A stretch of DNA of 64,000 bases. Origin: Siphonodentalium dalli (lineage: Eukaryota; Mollusca; Scaphopoda; Gadilida; Siphonodentaliidae). The translations under genes and the position numbers were made by a program. The stretch spans positions 137,844,351 through 137,908,350 of the forward strand of contig CP136062.1 in NCBI GenBank assembly GCA_032622095.1. The letters run 5' to 3'. Of the stretch, positions 52,018-60,924 are shown in pieces. The notes below the pieces were generated by a model, which was not told the origin of the DNA, made no database searches, and saw only the letters and a program-made list of their open reading frames with translations. Position 1 is the first letter of the stretch. Every line of letters starts with the position of its first letter.

Positions 52018-52697
52018 CTAGCAGGTGGACCCGACTTCGTCTGGGCTGTTTCCCCTCTGCTTTTCGGCGAATTGCGCGATTTGACCTTGAATTGTCCATT
52101 TTGAAGGTCAAGGTCAGGTGGGGTCACGATTTGATCCGTCCAAAACACTGCCCGGACAAAAGTACCCGATAAAAGTACCCGTCGAAATCCATCGGGTTTT
52201 ACCCGATTTGACCTTGAATTGATCATTTTGAAGGTCAAGGTCAGGCCGGGGTCACGATTTGACCCGTCCAAAACAATCAGTGGACAAAAGTAACGCTATG
52301 TATCAAATTTCGTGGAAATCCCATCAAAATTCGCGATTTGACCTTGAATTGACCGGATTTCAAGGTCACGTCGCACGGGCAAATGAATAGGCTTATGAGA
52401 CTCCCCATACGAAAGTATCCCTAGACACTAATTTTCATTAAAATCCCGTGATATTCGGGCGTTTGACCTTGACATGACCCGATTTCAAGGTCAAGGTCAC
52501 GTCGCACGGGCAAATTAATAGGTCTATGCCACTTCCCGGCCGAAAGTACCCCCACATACCAAGTTCCATCGAAATCGGCTAGGCCGTTTTCGAGTCCATC
52601 GCGAACACACAGACACACACACCCTCCCTCACTCTGTCTCTCTCACACACACACCCTCACACACACACACACAGATCTTCCAAAAATATATAATAGA
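52018..52697 (-). mobile_element. Helitron-like element 2 of the head-to-tail pair
   Basis: It has the same CTAG end and hairpin (52,021-52,018) as element 1 and abuts element 1's 5' end without a spacer. It ends at 52,697 (minus-strand TCTATTATATATTTTTGGAA), followed by plus-strand T. The pair as a whole therefore sits between A (50,817) and T (52,698), one Helitron target site. The interior carries four GACCTTGAATTGAYC-type repeats and a (CA)n tract at 52,605-52,670. Confidence 0.7.
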
Positions 52698-52784
52698 TAA
52701 CATCAGTACTTTATAAATTACTGCTTCAATTGCACAAAACTAAACGCGTACACGTGTTATACTAATCACATTTCAGGGGTTATA

Positions 52785-53325
52785 GTAGAGATTGGGAATA
52801 CACATAGGTGTCCGCCACTGAGCGAATTTATGCCACTATGATTTTCTTATAGGAAAATGCCTCTAGTTTCAGGATCTGGTGTTGGTGCACTAAGAAAATG
52901 TGGTCCAAAATAAAAAAAATTCATGCCTTTTCTATGAGTGCCCACCTCATTTTTAAAGCTATTTTCCGAAAATACTACAATTTTGTAAACTTCATTTTAT
53001 TACGAAATTTATCATGCCAAGAAGTCAATATGCGATATGGGAGATGAATTAGTATGATAGAGCTGAAATGTGCTTCAAATGTTTACAAAAGATATTCGTG
53101 GTGACGCCACGAGGCGCCTAACTCTTAGTGACGCTGCACTATTTTCACCAAAGTGACCTCGTTTCGTTTTCTCTGACCAGACATATATACGGAAAAAGTA
53201 TAACATATTTGGTGTTGTAGTGACCAATGGCATACTGACGATCTGATAAGCCCAATAACTTGAATATATTTAGCCCATGTCACGTATAGTACCCTAATAA
53301 CTTACCCCTACCCCAAAACACAAAT
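52785..53325 (+). repeat. Left terminal inverted repeat of the 7-kb element
   Basis: Outer part: TTGGGAATACACATAGGTGT, GCATTTTCCTATAAGAAAAT-type text and GTGCCCACCTCATTTTTAAAG. Inner part: CGGAAAAAGTATAACATATT, GATAAGCCCAATAAC and CACGTATAGTACCCTAATAA. All are mirrored at the right end. The extra 180 bases at 52,987-53,166 have no partner at the right and look like a later insertion. Confidence 0.9.
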
Positions 53326-53486
53326 TCTAGCATATCGACCACATTCGTGTATTTTTTGTTTTATTGCGACGTAATACATTGATAATCAAAGTAGTATCAT
53401 ATATCATTTTCTTTCTATTAAGTTATGCTTAATATTTCATAGGAAAAAAATCACCATAATCCAAGATGGCCGCCAATAATATGCAA

Positions 53487-53910
53487 AAAATAATGCAAAA
53501 CGTCATGAAAATGGATATTTTAACTACACATATCTTCATCATTCCCCAAATGTGTTATTAGTGAATAACTATTAATATGTTGAAATGTCTTAGTATAATA
53601 TTATCTTGTCATATTGTGATCTTCCCCACTGACGTATGTACCTTAATAGGCGGAAATTATTAGTTTGGAAAAGTGAGGTAGGAATTAGAATGGCTCAGTA
53701 TACGGAAAAATAATGCAAAACGTCATGAAAATGGATATTTTAACTACATATCTTCATCATTCCCCAAATGTGTTATTAGTGAATAACTATTAATATGTTG
53801 AAATGTCTTAGTATAATATTATTCTGTCATTTTGTGATCTTCCCCTTGACGTGTGTACCTTAATAGGCGGAAATTATTAGTTTGGAAAAGTGAGGTAGGA
53901 ATTAGAATGG
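53487..53910. repeat. Tandem direct duplication, ~215-bp unit
   Basis: AATAATGCAAAACGTCATGAAAATGG through GAAAAGTGAGGTAGGAATTAGAATGGCT appears twice in a row with only a few differences. The junction contains a fragment of TATACGGAAAAA, the inner TIR text. This is a recent local duplication between the left TIR and the gene. Confidence 0.9.
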
Positions 53911-53979
53911 CTATATAGAACATACCCACAACACACGTGTATAACTGTATGGTCGAATATCAGCCTTAAATTGAATTTC

Positions 53980-54025
53980 GAAACGCTCTTTATAATTTCT
54001 GACCATTAAATAACGCTCTTTATAA
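53980..54025 (+). promoter_or_regulatory. AACGCTCTTTATAA pair upstream of the transposon gene
   Basis: Two copies of AACGCTCTTTATAA lie about 31 bases apart, about 490 bases before the start codon. The TTTATAA part could serve as a TATA element. A diverged duplication of GCCAGAGCTCT...TAGCATYAT follows (54,062 and 54,349). A promoter role is inference only. Confidence 0.3.
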
Positions 54026-54505
54026 GTTATACCCTGCACCGACCAAGTGTTAGATACACGCGCCAGAGCTCTTTTAGATATCGTTGCGCGAGCATCGTTT
54101 TTCCACCTTAGCATTATCTTATTTTTCTCTTGTTCTCTTGATTATTATTCGTTGTTGTTCTTCGTTCTTTGTACTATAATCTGGTACGTGTATAGGCGAA
54201 TAGGACAGTGCCCTTTGTCGAAACCTTACGGTGACAACATACACAAAGGATCACTGTGGAATTCGTGCTATTTATATGCTTGTATTTTATTATACATGTG
54301 TGTTGTTCTTGTCGTTTGAATTGTGGATGCATTGATCGCAAGTGTGCGTGCCAGAGCTCTCATCTAGTTCGGTCCACGGTTATCGCTTCGCACCTAGCAT
54401 CATATTTGTATATGGAATAGGACAGGGTTGCTGTCCGCTTTGCACATCGTTTCGCTTCGACACACACTTTAAGTTAACCCATTTGCAAATTGGATCACGA
54501 CAGGA

Positions 54506-55660
54506 ATGTCACGAAAGCGCAAACGCACCGAAGACGTCCCAATATGTGTAATACATTACCCAGCATTGCACACCGAGGGCGCACATATCACCCTGTTAAA
54601 TGATGGCAGTTATACTAAACTGATAGAATGCAGGGACAAATTGCGTGCATTCGCTGCAAAAAATGGACACAGTGAACAATGTGACACAATTCCTGCAGAA
54701 TACGACCCTTGCAAACATGGATATCACAGTCAGTGCTATAAGAAATTTACACACTGCCGAAATGTAAATCCTAGTGCAGCAACCAGTTCTGATAATGATG
54801 GCGTGTGTCACACTCCAAGGCAGCATGCAAGTGGGAGTGATGGACGAGGCATGTTTCCCGAATCATGTGGTATATGTGGGAAAGTAGTTATTAAACTCAA
54901 ACAAAAGAGGGAACATCCAACCAAAATTCTCACTGAAACTGCATCTAGCAGACTTAAACAGGCTGCTACTTTGAGAAATGACGACACGATGTTGACCAGA
55001 ATCGGCACCGATGACTTAATCGCAAAGGAATTTCGAAAACACGACAGTTGCTACAGTGTCTATACGAGGATATGTTGGCCTGCTCGTCCTGGTGACAATG
55101 ATCCCGATAACGGTGTTGTTGATGACGACGGAATGACTACAATTGAGAGTGAAAATTTCACCGACGTGTGCGATTTTATCGACATGTATGTCTTGCAGCA
55201 ACTTCGTAGTGTATCTATGAATGTTTTGACTGGTATGATGTGTTATACAGTTGATGTTGCAGATAGACGCTATCGCTATCGGTATAAACAACGAATACAA
55301 ACGAAATATGGTAATGCTATATTATTCGTAACTGTTCAGACAAATAAATCACAGATAGTTATGAGTAGTCGGACTCTCACAGAAAATACAAAAGAGGTAT
55401 TTAAAATAGACGACGATGACGTTGTTGATCAGGCGGCCAATATTATTCGTAGGAATATGGAGGAGTTTCTTGACCAAACACCCGATCATTCGTGGCCCCC
55501 CTGTGCTGAGTCGCTGGCTGTCAAGAGCAGAAAACCCCCTAGCATGGTAACGTGTTTCATTGAGAACATTCTGAAGTCGCATAGTTGGCGCAAATCACGC
55601 ACAACCAAGAAGATTCAAACCGTTGCTAAATCGATTGCTGAAGATCTTCGGAGTTTCTCG
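54506..55660 (+). pseudogene. N-terminal segment: basic start and Cys/His putative zinc modules
   Basis: It starts with a basic MSRKRKR that could act as a nuclear signal. Cys and His are clustered: C14/H17, then C69...H74xxC77 (CKHGYHSQCYKKF), then CGICGK near residue 121, and HDSCYSVYTRICW near 180. This pattern suggests two zinc-binding, DNA-contacting modules. The rest is helical, with RYRYRYKQRIQTKYG and a DDDDVVDQA acidic patch. The frame ends in a spurious tail at 55,711, because the true continuation (EKHTMLGVVIHNMSG) is in the next frame from about 55,660. Confidence 0.7.
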
Positions 55661-57360
55661 TGGCGCCTTCTTAACAGAAAAGCACACTATGCTAGGTGTT
55701 GTGATACATAACATGTCTGGACAAAAGGCTCCAATACAAATCCTATCGAAATTGGGCCACTCAATTAACTATGATACAGTGTGTCAAAATGAGACTAGTT
55801 TGGCCGAGCAGTCTCAGCAGTTCTTCGAACGTCCTCAGATGTGGCCTCTGCAGCCCGCATATGATTCTGTGACAGTACTGACACATTTCTGGGTTGATAA
55901 CTTCGATTATAATGTCGAAACAGTCACTGGTCATGACACTATCCACAGTACCCATGCCGTTGCTTATCAAGAATGTTCCGACGACACCGTGCCAAGAACA
56001 TCGGAGATTGTACTACCGAGACCGAAACGAAGGTCGATGTGTGTCTCGGTGGACACAGAACTGGAACGCCGCCGTGTTAATCCAAAACGGGGACCACCTA
56101 AAACACCTAAACCGATTGGATGTTGTAGACCACCGGTGGATCAGGCAAAAAAGAAGCTAATGGCATGGAAGATGGGCAGAGAGCAACATGACAAAAGGCA
56201 AACGATTCCTAGGTTTGGTGGTTGGATTTCGTCAGTTTCAGAAGAAAATGTGCCCACAAAAACAATGATCACATACCTGCCACCCATTCACAAACCAATA
56301 TCGGAATACGAAACCGTTGCCGAATATCTACAAATGGCACAAAAGTTAGCCCAACAAGCGAACATGCCCAGTGTTCATATCACACTCGACGTTGGAGCAG
56401 CAGCAAAAACATTTCAGATGATCTGGAAATATCCGAAGGAATTCAGTAATGTCATCGTCCATTTAGGTGACTTTCATTTGATGCAGGAAATGTTCGGTAT
56501 TATTGGTATGATGGTTTCAGCGAGTGGTTTCGAGGACATTGTCTTTCAAACCGATGACGGTGAACCAATAACTATTCCTAAGTTACTATGTGATCTGTTT
56601 GAATCCAAATCACCGGCAACTGCATGTAAGCTGATCATGACAGACACTGACGAGTTCTCGCAGGTCTGGGAAATGTACGAAGCATACAAAACAACAATTC
56701 GAAATGTAGCTTTAGGCAAGACAGCCAAGTTCTGGTTAATGTACCTCGATGTGATTGACATATTGCAAATGCTACATTGTGCAGTGCAAGAGAATGATTA
56801 TGATTTAAGACTTCACTGCTGGGAATCTGCACTTCCATATTTCTTTGCGTACAACAAACCAAACTACGGGAGATATGGCGCATATTATGCACATTGTTTG
56901 AAGACGTTAGAATACACGAATCCGCAAGCGAGGACTGTGATAGAGGAGAAGGGATTGTCTGTATGCCGTGGGGGGATTAAGTCAGGTAGACAAGCAGTTG
57001 ACCATTCTGGTGAACAGACATACAATCGACATGCGAAAATACCAGGTGGTATCAAACAGTTCGCATGGAATCGTGGCAATTATAACAAGTGGGTTTTAAA
57101 TAGACCACAAGTGGCGAAGTTCAAAGAGATGTTATTCGAAATTGTGGGTATGAGCATCTCCTCCGACAATATACATCCGACCTGTAGACAGAGCATGATT
57201 AAAAAATCGGAGGATCGAGTCCAATCAATCTTGAATGTTCTGCGAAATGAATTTGTCAACCCTTTTGATGCCGAATTGGACAAGATGAATCTGTACGATC
57301 TGTCGTCTGGAGCTCCTGTCAAAGCTGATGTGGCAGATGGAATACTGCATCAGGGATGGG
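55660..57360 (+). pseudogene. Central transposase-like core
   Basis: Landmarks in order: LTEKHTMLGVVIHNMSG; ILSKLGHSINYDT; VLTHFWVDNFDYN; TTHATHA-like HSTHAVAYQE; MITYLPPIHKPISEYETV; HITLDVGAAAKTFQMIW; NVIVHLGDFHLMQEMFGIIG; SASGFEDIVFQ; KFWLMYLDVIDILQ; LRLHCWESALPYFFAYNKPN; YGRYGAYYAHCL; QAVDHSGEQTYNRHAKIPGG. The same chain (aspartate, GxFH, PYFFA..NY.RY) marks the large invertebrate protein family mentioned for the whole gene. Acidic candidates are D256, D283 and E401 of this frame. The first two are only 27 apart, too close for a standard DDE pair, so I do not assign a catalytic triad. Confidence 0.65.
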
Positions 57361-57485
57361 GTAATTGTAATTTGTAATTTTAATTGACTGTAATTAATTA
57401 CATTTTTTCAAGTAATTGCATGTAATTGGTAATTGAGTTTATTCTCAATTACATGTAATTGCATATGGACAATTGCAGACAACAG
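57361..57485 (+). other. Candidate intron (or small AT-rich insertion)
   Basis: It begins GTAATTG and ends ACAACAG. The exon before ends with one extra base and the exon after begins with two, so phases match (G+AG). The interior is nearly all TAATTG/CAATTA text and folds on itself: GCATGTAATTGGTAATTGAG against CTCAATTACATGTAATTGC. A small foldback insertion that happens to be spliceable is an alternative. Confidence 0.45.
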
Positions 57486-59071
57486 AGTTTGTTCAAAAAC
57501 GCATAGAAAGTTCTGAGATTGAACTGTTCAGTCCTATTTCGAGAACACGCGTTTTCTCATTCCAAGATTGCAACAAGAAAGTTTCCGTTTCGGCCCAAGG
57601 GAAAGTAAAGGAATTGACAATTGAACGAAACATTCTAGGTAGTTTGTTAGCGTCCAGTCATCTAAAAAAAAGAATCTGTCGATGTCGATAAAGTGTTATC
57701 GTACTGCCTTGGTCCAGTACCGATTGCTTTGGCACATCCTGACGGAACGAGAAGACAAACAGCTAAGAGTAAGTTGATTGGAATAATAACTGATAACTGT
57801 GAAATTGTTGATTCCGCTACACTACCGCCTCGAAATAACACATCGGCCTATGTGATAGACTTAAAGGCGTTAATTCGTACACTGCCCCAAAAACCCAAAA
57901 CTTTTGAGGAATTGGCGCTGCAAATTATCAGTTCAATTCCCCAGGGATATCAACGAATTGACGTAATTGCGGACACATATAGAGAGCATACCATCAAACT
58001 GGGTGAACGGTCAAATAGAGGGGTTGCTGAAAAATATATTATTACTAGTGCAAAAGTCAAAATTCCTGAGAACTTCTCCAAGTTTCTATCGAACGGGACA
58101 AACAAGGAGAGAATGATAGATCTGATCCTGGACGTGTGGAATGAGAAACGGGATATGCTACTCGTGGGACAGGTTGTCTACTTTTCCATCAGAGATCTAT
58201 GTTATTTAGTAACTCGAGATGACACAACGATAATTGAAGATCTGTGTTCGGACCAGGAAGAGGCAGACACAAAAGTTGTCCTACATGTTAACCATGCACT
58301 CAGAAACAATCCAGGACCTGTGATTGTCGTTCCCCATCAGGAGACACTGACATATTGGTCATTATGCTTGGACATTGCACCAATCTGACCCACGATGTGT
58401 ATCTAGATACTGGTCGTGGCAAATTCAGAATAATTGTTAACCTAAACAAAAGTTCTATGAATACCTTATTAAGACAATCTATTATTGGACTTCATGCGTT
58501 TACAGGGAACGACTATGTATCCGCATTCTTCAAGAAAGGCAAACAGGTGTGTTACAACCTATTACTGAAAGATTACCGGTATATTGAGGCCTTCGCCACA
58601 CTGGGAACACAATGGTCTACCGAATGTTATGAAATGAACATAATTGAAGAGTATGTATCTAAGCTCTATGGGAAACGACGCCCTGTAACGGTCAACCAAA
58701 CTCGAGTGCAACTCTTCTGGGAAAAGTATTTGAATCACGGCAAAGTTGTTGATTTGTCATTGATACCACCATGTGTTTATAGTTTGAAGCTGCACACATA
58801 TAGGGCAAACTACGTTTCACGCATATGGCGCCTGGCATCAGTTCCGAAAATATGCGCCCCGGATCCATCTGACTATGGATGGGAAGACGACAGTAGCATC
58901 AAATGGATAACGAAGGCATTCCCTGACGATATTTCAAACTTAGTGTACAGGCAGAACGAGAAGAGTATTACCGAAGAATCGCAAGATAGCAATATTGATA
59001 TTTGGACAGACGAAGAAGATAGTGATGACTATATATGTCGGATGATGACGATTGTAGTGATGTTGATTTAG
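57486..59071 (+). pseudogene. C-terminal segment with PIN/XPG (FEN1)-like nuclease motifs
   Basis: After FVQKRIESSEIELF and a VLSYCLGPVPIALAHPDGT block comes a Rossmann-like run (YQRIDVIADTYREHTIK) that opens the nuclease-like domain. Then come DQEEADTKVVLHVNHAL (E189, E190 and D192 of the frame starting at 57,693), SGDTDILVIMLG (58,337-58,372, in the shifted frame) and GLHAFTGNDYVSAFF (58,502-58,516 for TGNDY). Conserved acidic residues in this order, EAD then SxDTD then GxDY, define the PIN/FEN1/XPG fold. A metal-dependent nuclease acting on flap or branched DNA is the inferred role. The end (DEEDSDD) is acidic. Frames change near 57,668 and 58,327. Confidence 0.7.
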
Positions 59072-59406
59072 TGCATATACATGCACGATACCAACTCTAC
59101 GATACATATGCAACATGTATCAATCTCTGTAATATCATTACTTTCTGTCAATTCGTATTATATATAATCAAATGCATTACATCCATATTATACCAAAATA
59201 TTCTATTTTCACCCAAAATTAACCAAAATATGTTGTTTTCACCCAATAATACTAATTTCTGACATTCTCTTTATGTCAAAATACTACATTTTAACGTAAA
59301 CCCACAACAATTAGTTATAGAAACTTAGTAAACTCCGTTGGAGTAACTATAACAAGAATGTAGAAGCATATGTCACCGAATTCCCAAAATATCGATTTTT
59401 TTTATA

Positions 59407-59751
59407 TTTCGGGGTAGGGGTAGGTTATTAGGGTACTATACGTGACATGGGCTAAATATTTTCACGTTATTGGGCTTATCAGATGGCCAGTATGCTACTG
59501 GTCACTACAACACCAAATATGTTATACTTTTCCGTATAGATTTCTGGTCAGTGAAAATTGTAGTATTTTCGGAAAATAGCTTTAAAAATGAGGTGGGCAC
59601 TCATAGAAAAGGCATGAATTTTTTTTATTTTGGACCACATTTTCTTAGTGCACCAACCAGATCCTGAAACTAGAGGCATTTTCCTATAAGAAAATCATAG
59701 TGGCATAAATTCGCTCAGCGGCGGACACCTATGTGTATTCCCAATCTCTAC
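59407..59751 (-). repeat. Right terminal inverted repeat of the 7-kb element
   Basis: Reverse complement of the left arm, without the 180-base extra segment. It runs from GGGGTAGGGGTAGGTTATTAGGG to CCCAATCTCTAC. Identity to the left arm is high, with scattered single changes (for example CATACTGACGATC against CAGTATG...GATGGCC), so the two ends have not been separated from each other for long. Confidence 0.9.
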
Positions 59752-59759
59752 TATCGAGT

Positions 59760-60030
59760 CCGCGAATCTTAATGATAACTGGGTCGACAACCAAACTCCT
59801 CTGTCGTGTAACTCCTTTATAGGATTTAATGAAACACTAATTGAAGAGTTTCGAACTCAATGGCGAAACGATGTTGATTATTCAGATAGAGGAGAGTATT
59901 GTAAACATATGCAAGTACAGCCTCCAATTAGCTGGCACTATATGAACATGCCATATATAGACATATGTCTATGCGTTCAGAAAATAAGAACGTCCAATGA
60001 ATGTTGTGTTGTTTTAATTATGTTTTCATT
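59760..60030 (+). other. Open, protein-like segment at the right flank of the transposon
   Basis: From 59,755 a frame without a start codon stays open for about 90 codons (NDNWVDNQTPLSCNSFIGF, then EEFRTQWRNDVDY, then a WHYMNMPYIDICLC tail) and stops near 60,033. Composition is protein-like. It may be an exon or retroelement fragment cut by the insertion. I recognise no family. Confidence 0.3.
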
Positions 60031-60033
60031 CTG

Positions 60034-60924
60034 AGTATAACAAATAAAGTTTAAAACAAATATTTTAGTCATTAATTGTGAACCGACCAGAAAACGATTA
60101 TTTAATTTGGCCAAAGTTTGTTTTAATTTGGCCAAAACACATTTGGCTAAAGTCTTTTTCATGATTAGATAGAAAGAGTACTGTATGTAACTTAGTACTC
60201 GGTTATGAATTCCATGTATTTTTAAAATGCCCTGCATTACAGACTCTACGAGAAAGACATATAAAACCCAACTTCTACCGAAAATCGAATATTATTAAAT
60301 TGAATGAACTATTCAATTCGGGAAAGGGGAAGAGAACACAAAATCGTTCACTATTCATTAATAGGGTTATGCCATTCTTTAGGCTCTCCTGGGGCATTCT
60401 ATAACTGCACACGTTAGGACACCACCATGGGTTGTTGAATTAAATAATTGTTGAATTTCACTATATATTGTGTACTAATCACTCAAAACTCCGCATGCAT
60501 CGCACACTATATACTGTATTTTTGGCGACTGGTTTCATAATGCACTCCTCTTACTGTAAAGTTTTGTGTCGCAGCCAGCGATGGCTATCCGTTGTGAATA
60601 GCGATCTTATTTCGCGGGAAGCTCGTGATTCACGACGACGAGTACATCAGTGATTGACAATCTAAACTAGCATATTGAGGTTGTAGCTCAATACAGCTGT
60701 ATGGTTTACATGATATACATATACAGCCTCGAACGGAGTAAAGTGATATATTGCAGAAAATAAATTTCAGGTGTTATTTGAGCTTATTAGAAACCATGAA
60801 ATCGTAAACGTTATTACGGATAGTAAAATACGAGAACGATTAGAAAGTACACAACGGTTGGTGACGTAGTACCCTATCCGTATCCGTAATCGTAAACGTG
60901 AGTTTTGCGAAAGGTCTCTATTAA
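60034..60924. other. No recognisable feature
   Basis: Intergenic DNA. A 61-codon frame (60,468-60,653) starts with a hydrophobic, signal-like stretch but has no supporting context. Confidence 0.35.

Follow-up and report, generated by a model that had tools for sequence, protein, structure and literature searches.

Kapitonov and Jurka in 2010 and Kojima in 2020 are said to have described the nuclease encoded by Academ DNA transposons as being of the XPG type. Two sorts of Academ element differ in the length of their target site duplication (TSD): according to the accessible portion of PMC10045372, this is 3-4 bp for AcademX and 9-10 bp for AcademH, the two lengths being tied to an encoded nuclease and an encoded helicase, respectively. 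Helicase_C domains are assigned, in the available part of PMC10799480, to AcademH, KolobokH or Helitron elements; and the available part of PMC10294476 gives 100 curated bivalve Academ families with a mean length of 5565 bp and reports that Academ has been amplified in bivalves.

Here an element of 6971 bp is described from the scaphopod Siphonodentalium dalli, within a stretch of 64,000 nucleotides (termed here the window). On the evidence of its sequence, it is probably a dead DNA transposon with terminal inverted repeats (TIRs), of the nuclease-bearing Academ kind (AcademX), in which a core carrying a candidate DDE triad is fused in cis to a FEN1/EXO1-type nuclease. This kind of element has been described already, and the present family would be a new instance of it. 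Other loci in the same genome (2.23 Gb in 9 contigs) are labeled by L-numbers, such as L029.

The element spans positions 52,783-59,753, its ends having been fixed from sister copies; the long inverted termini seen in the first-pass annotation are confirmed, with the true ends lying 2 bases beyond the earlier 52,785 and 59,751 on each side. The inverted termini open with TAGTAGAG, a longer start being read as TAGTAGAGATTGGGAATACACATAGG. Both the left TIR (52,783-53,324, starting TAGTAGAGATTGGG and delimited by inverted-repeat detection and sister-copy ends) and the right TIR (59,401-59,753) are unstranded features; the latter is without about 195 bp near 59,554 that are present in L029. Their arms pair at 52,782-52,880/59,656-59,754 (99% identity), at 52,881-52,984/59,554-59,657 (100%) and at 53,194-53,324/59,401-59,531 (92%). 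Repeat detection also finds, in the 5' leader, an unstranded tandem duplication consisting of two copies of about 218 bp (53,486-53,912). Outside the element, at 52,300-52,580, imperfect direct repeats with a spacing of 125-131 bp lie beside a CA-rich stretch immediately to its left.

A genome search with the TIR, which had been proposed as a way of finding further copies, yields at least 41 match rows (40 scored among 103 candidates), which is above chance, and reveals sister copies with 3-bp duplications at most sites. A search with the core gives at least 129 match rows, several per copy and again above chance. First-look numbers, which count candidates rather than confirmed copies, reach 2149 when the core is the query (77 of them scored); two nuclease queries give 3797 (90 scored) and 4774 (83 scored).

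Twenty genome stretches and the window were examined for TSDs; 20 copies are two-ended, and L035, which has one end, was excluded from the counts. A 3-bp direct repeat flanks TAGTAG...CTACTA in 15 of the 20 two-ended copies. Because the window copy and L029 have flanks in common, they are counted as a single site (L029 being the one omitted); among the 19 distinct two-ended sites an exact 3-bp TSD is then found at 15 and a 4-bp TSD at none, and in a cross-pair control, which compares the left end of one copy with the right ends of other copies, three bases agree in 17 of 342 cases (5%). The sites without a TSD are those of the window copy, whose flanks are TTA and TCG, and of L036, L044 and L046. 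The window flanks might be taken as a sign that insertion is TSD-free as a rule; this was rejected, inasmuch as these flanks became common to the window copy and L029 through duplication. The two copies lie 35.7 kb apart and give local alignments of 98.5-99.5% over both element and flanks (window 52,516-60,077); they represent a local duplication of the element together with its flanks. L036 and L046, which lie about 75 kb apart on contig C7 without TSDs, have flanks that are mutually inverted up to the element (44 bp exactly, 184 bp at 99%) and also have flank sequence in common, an arrangement that is probably a local inverted duplication via the long TIRs. Copies are 4.9-8.0 kb long, except for L048, which has both ends within 873 bp. 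Several (L034, L036, L038, L039 and L042-L047) measure 4.9-5.5 kb and combine the same TIRs with broken pieces of the gene; these short copies are probably non-autonomous.

The single degraded gene reported in the first-pass annotation is indeed one plus-strand gene spread over several frames, which shift between 54,506-55,681 and 55,662-57,359, near 57,665 and near 58,331; the window copy is dead. Frames are interrupted in the close copies L029-L047 as well, and diverged families have long open frames (e.g., 1562 aa in L067). An unstranded AT-rich palindromic insertion of about 104 bp (57,348-57,451) introduces a stop in the window copy and is shared with L029; that it might be an intron was rejected, the piece being missing from the five other covering copies (L030, L031, L033, L037 and L040). 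Conversely, the core of the window copy is without a 129-bp stretch near 56,550 that is retained in all five copies checked. The N-terminal part (54,506-55,681, plus strand) contains two Cys/His modules, HGYHxxC and CxxC...HxxC..YTR, which likewise had been noticed earlier and which an alignment shows to be kept across the window family and L049, L050 and L067, the four families placed side by side. A Pfam scan of this part returned nothing but RING-like matches below the cut-off; the modules are predicted to bind zinc and likely serve to recognize the TIRs.

Two diverged families also combine the gene with TIRs. L049 has TIR arms of 807 nt at 99% identity, ends TAGTCTAGG, TAA on both sides (the boundary being read by eye) and a gene in two parts that carries the motifs; the ends of L067 read TAGTCCGGGAGC, ATA flanks it on either side, and its gene is in one open frame. 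Judged from one copy per family, each thus carries long TIRs of its own that start with TAGT, and its target duplication is 3 bp long; in L050 no long TIR was found within the examined stretch. Hence, in the three families with both ends determined (the window family, L049 and L067), the gene and TIRs travel together. The first-pass annotation had counted genomic copies of the gene without these TIRs against its reading. Taken literally, such copies do exist; they are harmless to the reading, however, because the TIRs of the diverged families, although of different sequence, end in the same manner.

The transposase core (55,662-57,359, plus strand) contains, by alignment, three conserved acidic residues: the D of DNFD (codon 55,896), the D of TLDV (codon 56,388) and the E of EQT (codon 57,012). 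The corresponding motifs, DN(F/C/V)(D/N), T(F/L/V)D and E(E/Q/H/K)(T/L), are present in 7/7, 6/6 and 6/6 covering rows, respectively, and in L067, L050 and L073 the two aspartates are 169-171 residues apart and the second aspartate and the glutamate 246-248 residues apart. From these features we infer a candidate DDE triad; it is kept at that grade because a core profile, when compared with the PDB, matched no RNase H or transposase fold and gave two ribosomal-protein matches (E = 0.37 and 1.6). The D of VHLGDFH was also considered as a catalytic residue and was rejected, its place being taken by A, V or E in relatives.

The core appears to be related to the Pfam family DUF6589, the link being L073: this open frame of 1541 codons has the same layout, nuclease motifs included, and scores 29.4 bits against DUF6589 (cut-off 27; E = 4.4e-7); 2 of 9 core rows match DUF6589 at E ≤ 10, with a best E of 1.3e-7. 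A genome search with DUF6589 gives, at E ≤ 1, at least 105 match rows (102 scored among 196 candidates), and these 105 group, among the matches listed, into 77 loci (e.g., C1:3782466-3784928). A Helicase_C match (from a set of at least 143 rows, the scored part of the candidates) lies within 10 kb of 26 of the 77 loci, 24 of the 26 being downstream on the opposite strand, that is, convergent; a uniform model predicts 0.10, and the loci are not independent because several fall in local clusters, such as five within C2:42.5-43.3 Mb. The DUF6589 loci beside helicases are likely AcademH-like elements that share their core with AcademX-like ones. DUF6589 goes unmentioned in the literature searched, a body of work outside which most subscription papers lie.

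The C-terminal part is encoded in two frames of the plus strand. The first piece of the XPG/FEN-like nuclease (57,666-58,388), which has equivalents in 15 relatives, includes by alignment D 57,858, D 57,972, K 57,996, E 58,005, R 58,008, R 58,017 and the EEAD motif (E 58,260 and D 58,266); the second (58,292-59,071), in the other frame, includes GDTD (D 58,343 and D 58,349) and GND (D 58,511), behind which the tail is conserved in an LPPC...HxxRANY-like manner. In the window copy, every one of the seven acidic codons can thus still be read. The EEADT, SGDTD and TGNDY motifs pointed out in the first-pass annotation do exist and hardly vary among relatives, and to them can be added two further acidic motifs, IDL (Asp codon 57,858) and ADTYR..K..ER (Asp codon 57,972), which complete the FEN/XPG pattern: seven carboxylates of the FEN1/XPG/EXO1 type are present in order. 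The order is identical in Methanocaldococcus jannaschii FEN1 (D27, D80, E152/E154, D173/D175 and D224, counted in the sequence), where these carboxylates bind metal.

Conservation was assessed in two alignments. The first (A2) goes back to an alignment of 18 nuclease-region sequences and two window pieces and comprises 10 of the 18, with L051, L052, L053, L057, L059, L061, L063, L064 and the window pieces left out as near-duplicate, incomplete or broken; the second (A3), which is trimmed, adds L051, L073, L029, L030 and L031 to these 10 rows, for a total of 15, the close copies standing for the window pieces. The nuclease of L050, which is interrupted by a stop, is in neither. In A3, identity reaches 93% or more in 27 columns, of which six are Asp and two Glu. 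By L049 numbering, the acidic columns are D16 (14/14), D54 (15/15), E150 and D152 (14/15 each) and D178, D180 and D236 (15/15 each), the exceptions being one member with Y at E150 and one with H at D152; the basic/helix columns are K62 (15/15), E65 (14/15), R66 and R69 (15/15). Over the nuclease, seven family pairs give pN of 0.27-0.52 and pS of 0.80-0.86, which points to purifying selection as a tendency rather than as a measured ratio, pS being saturated. In L060, L065 and L066 the nuclease-region alignment shows, by eye, a cysteine-rich CXC-like C-terminal segment, and the Pfam TCR model matches 2 of the 10 A2 members (best E = 4e-5); L049, which is closer to the window family, ends in an acidic tail instead.

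Compared with the PDB, the A2 profile retrieves four sequences at E ≤ 10 (best E = 0.42) and the A3 profile, out of 177,635 sequences, five (best E = 0.011), all of them Exonuclease 1 (EXO1). DtYk..siK..eR..R is aligned with EXO1 VFDGCTLPSKKEVERSRR and TGnDY with SGCDY; at 5v09, where Ala is printed for the last aligned Asp, the score of that stretch drops from 11.6 to 6.2 bits, and at 7mxx, where Ala is printed for an Arg of the first stretch, from 4.2 to 2.2 bits. With the full active-site pattern, and with EXO1 as the only PDB profile match at E ≤ 10, the earlier view of the C-terminus as XPG/FEN-like is strengthened. Pfam XPG models have no matches in the window pieces and relatives scanned, and the 12 genome matches of the XPG_I model are, by eye, all outside the listed elements. 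Single-sequence PDB searches gave chance matches or none; scans of the nuclease against Pfam, NCBIfam and PHROGs gave, besides TCR, weak matches taken as chance (e.g., DUF7731, best E = 0.0039); and scans of viral contigs and phages found no relatives. One might suppose that the acidic motifs arose by chance in a domain unrelated to FEN/XPG: the best E is 0.011, the score comes from two short stretches, and a comparison by hhalign with eight archaeal FEN1 sequences failed (E = 0.089, in the wrong register, both profiles being narrow). Yet every match at E ≤ 10 in the two overlapping profile searches is to EXO1 and in register, and the order of the seven carboxylates fits, which leaves coincidence scarcely credible. 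Nor is it at all probable, if slightly less far-fetched, that the module has a PIN/FEN fold that has lost catalysis and serves DNA binding or dimerization, as the Y and H substitutions at E150 and D152 and the distance from known nucleases might suggest; 14 or 15 covering rows retain each of the seven acidic positions and the Lys/Arg set, and pN stays below the saturated pS. An active nuclease of the FEN1/EXO1 type is thus the preferred reading. It has in common with EXO1, FEN1 and XPG the order of the seven acidic residues, the Lys/Arg helix, and G-x-D-Y followed by a GK-rich segment, and differs from them in sitting behind a transposase and in the interval from the second Asp to EEAD (96 residues in L049 versus 72 in M. 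jannaschii FEN1).

As to which superfamily the element belongs to, the first-pass annotation had offered either an Academ-like element or an unnamed relative. Like AcademX as described in the accessible part of PMC10045372 (TSDs of 3-4 bp, an encoded nuclease), the window family is a TIR DNA transposon with a 3-bp TSD (at 15 of 19 sites, the window copy's not being among them) and an XPG-type nuclease, the sequence similarity of which is weak; unlike it, the family has a domain that lies beyond the Pfam XPG models, and some relatives add the cysteine-rich CXC tail. With AcademH it likely shares a homologous core, considering that L073 exceeds the DUF6589 cut-off and that DUF6589 loci occur near helicases, but Pfam detects no helicase in the window pieces, L049, L050 or L067, and the TSD is 3 bp rather than 9-10 bp. 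An unnamed superfamily, having an XPG-like nuclease and a 3-bp TSD as in Academ together with a DDE core that is not Academ's, is favored by the facts that Academ enters this comparison by published description, that DUF6589 is tied to Academ solely by its helicase neighbors, and that KolobokH and Helitron, according to the part of PMC10799480 at hand, carry helicases also. We regard this as unlikely: TSD length and nuclease agree with AcademX as set out in the accessible part of PMC10045372, and the bivalve Academ mean of 5565 bp in the available part of PMC10294476 is close to the length of the present copies (4.9-8.0 kb, L048 excepted). Academ-like therefore stands as the best name, with good though indirect support from the 3-bp TSD, the encoded nuclease and the DUF6589-related core. 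Within the literature searched by title, outside which most subscription papers lie, no title concerns a flap nuclease of this sort in a transposon; PMC9587614 and PMC10045372 were checked in their accessible parts.

An AcademX-like element of this sort would most likely move as follows. The Cys/His modules would bind the TIRs; the core, through its candidate DDE triad, would excise the element, cleaving and rejoining its ends with a stagger of 3 bp; and the nuclease would trim away 5' flaps or gapped strands, either where the element ends or at donor and target joints, or may instead process end joints that are gapped or form hairpins. The strand cut by the nuclease and the timing of that step are likewise inferred. 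A broader proposal, which we consider possible if rather doubtful, is that the cis-fused FEN/EXO1-type nuclease is an obligatory second catalytic center, which sister lineages swap for a helicase; that this swap sets the stagger at 3 versus 9-10 bp; that DUF6589 is the common Academ core; and that many unannotated invertebrate proteins form one transposase superfamily.

This analysis names specific residues for mutation within a transposon-encoded, putative flap-type nuclease. It also ties an unannotated Pfam family, DUF6589, both to nuclease-bearing elements and to helicase-adjacent loci of the same genome, and it would account for a large multi-copy protein family within the genome of S. dalli.
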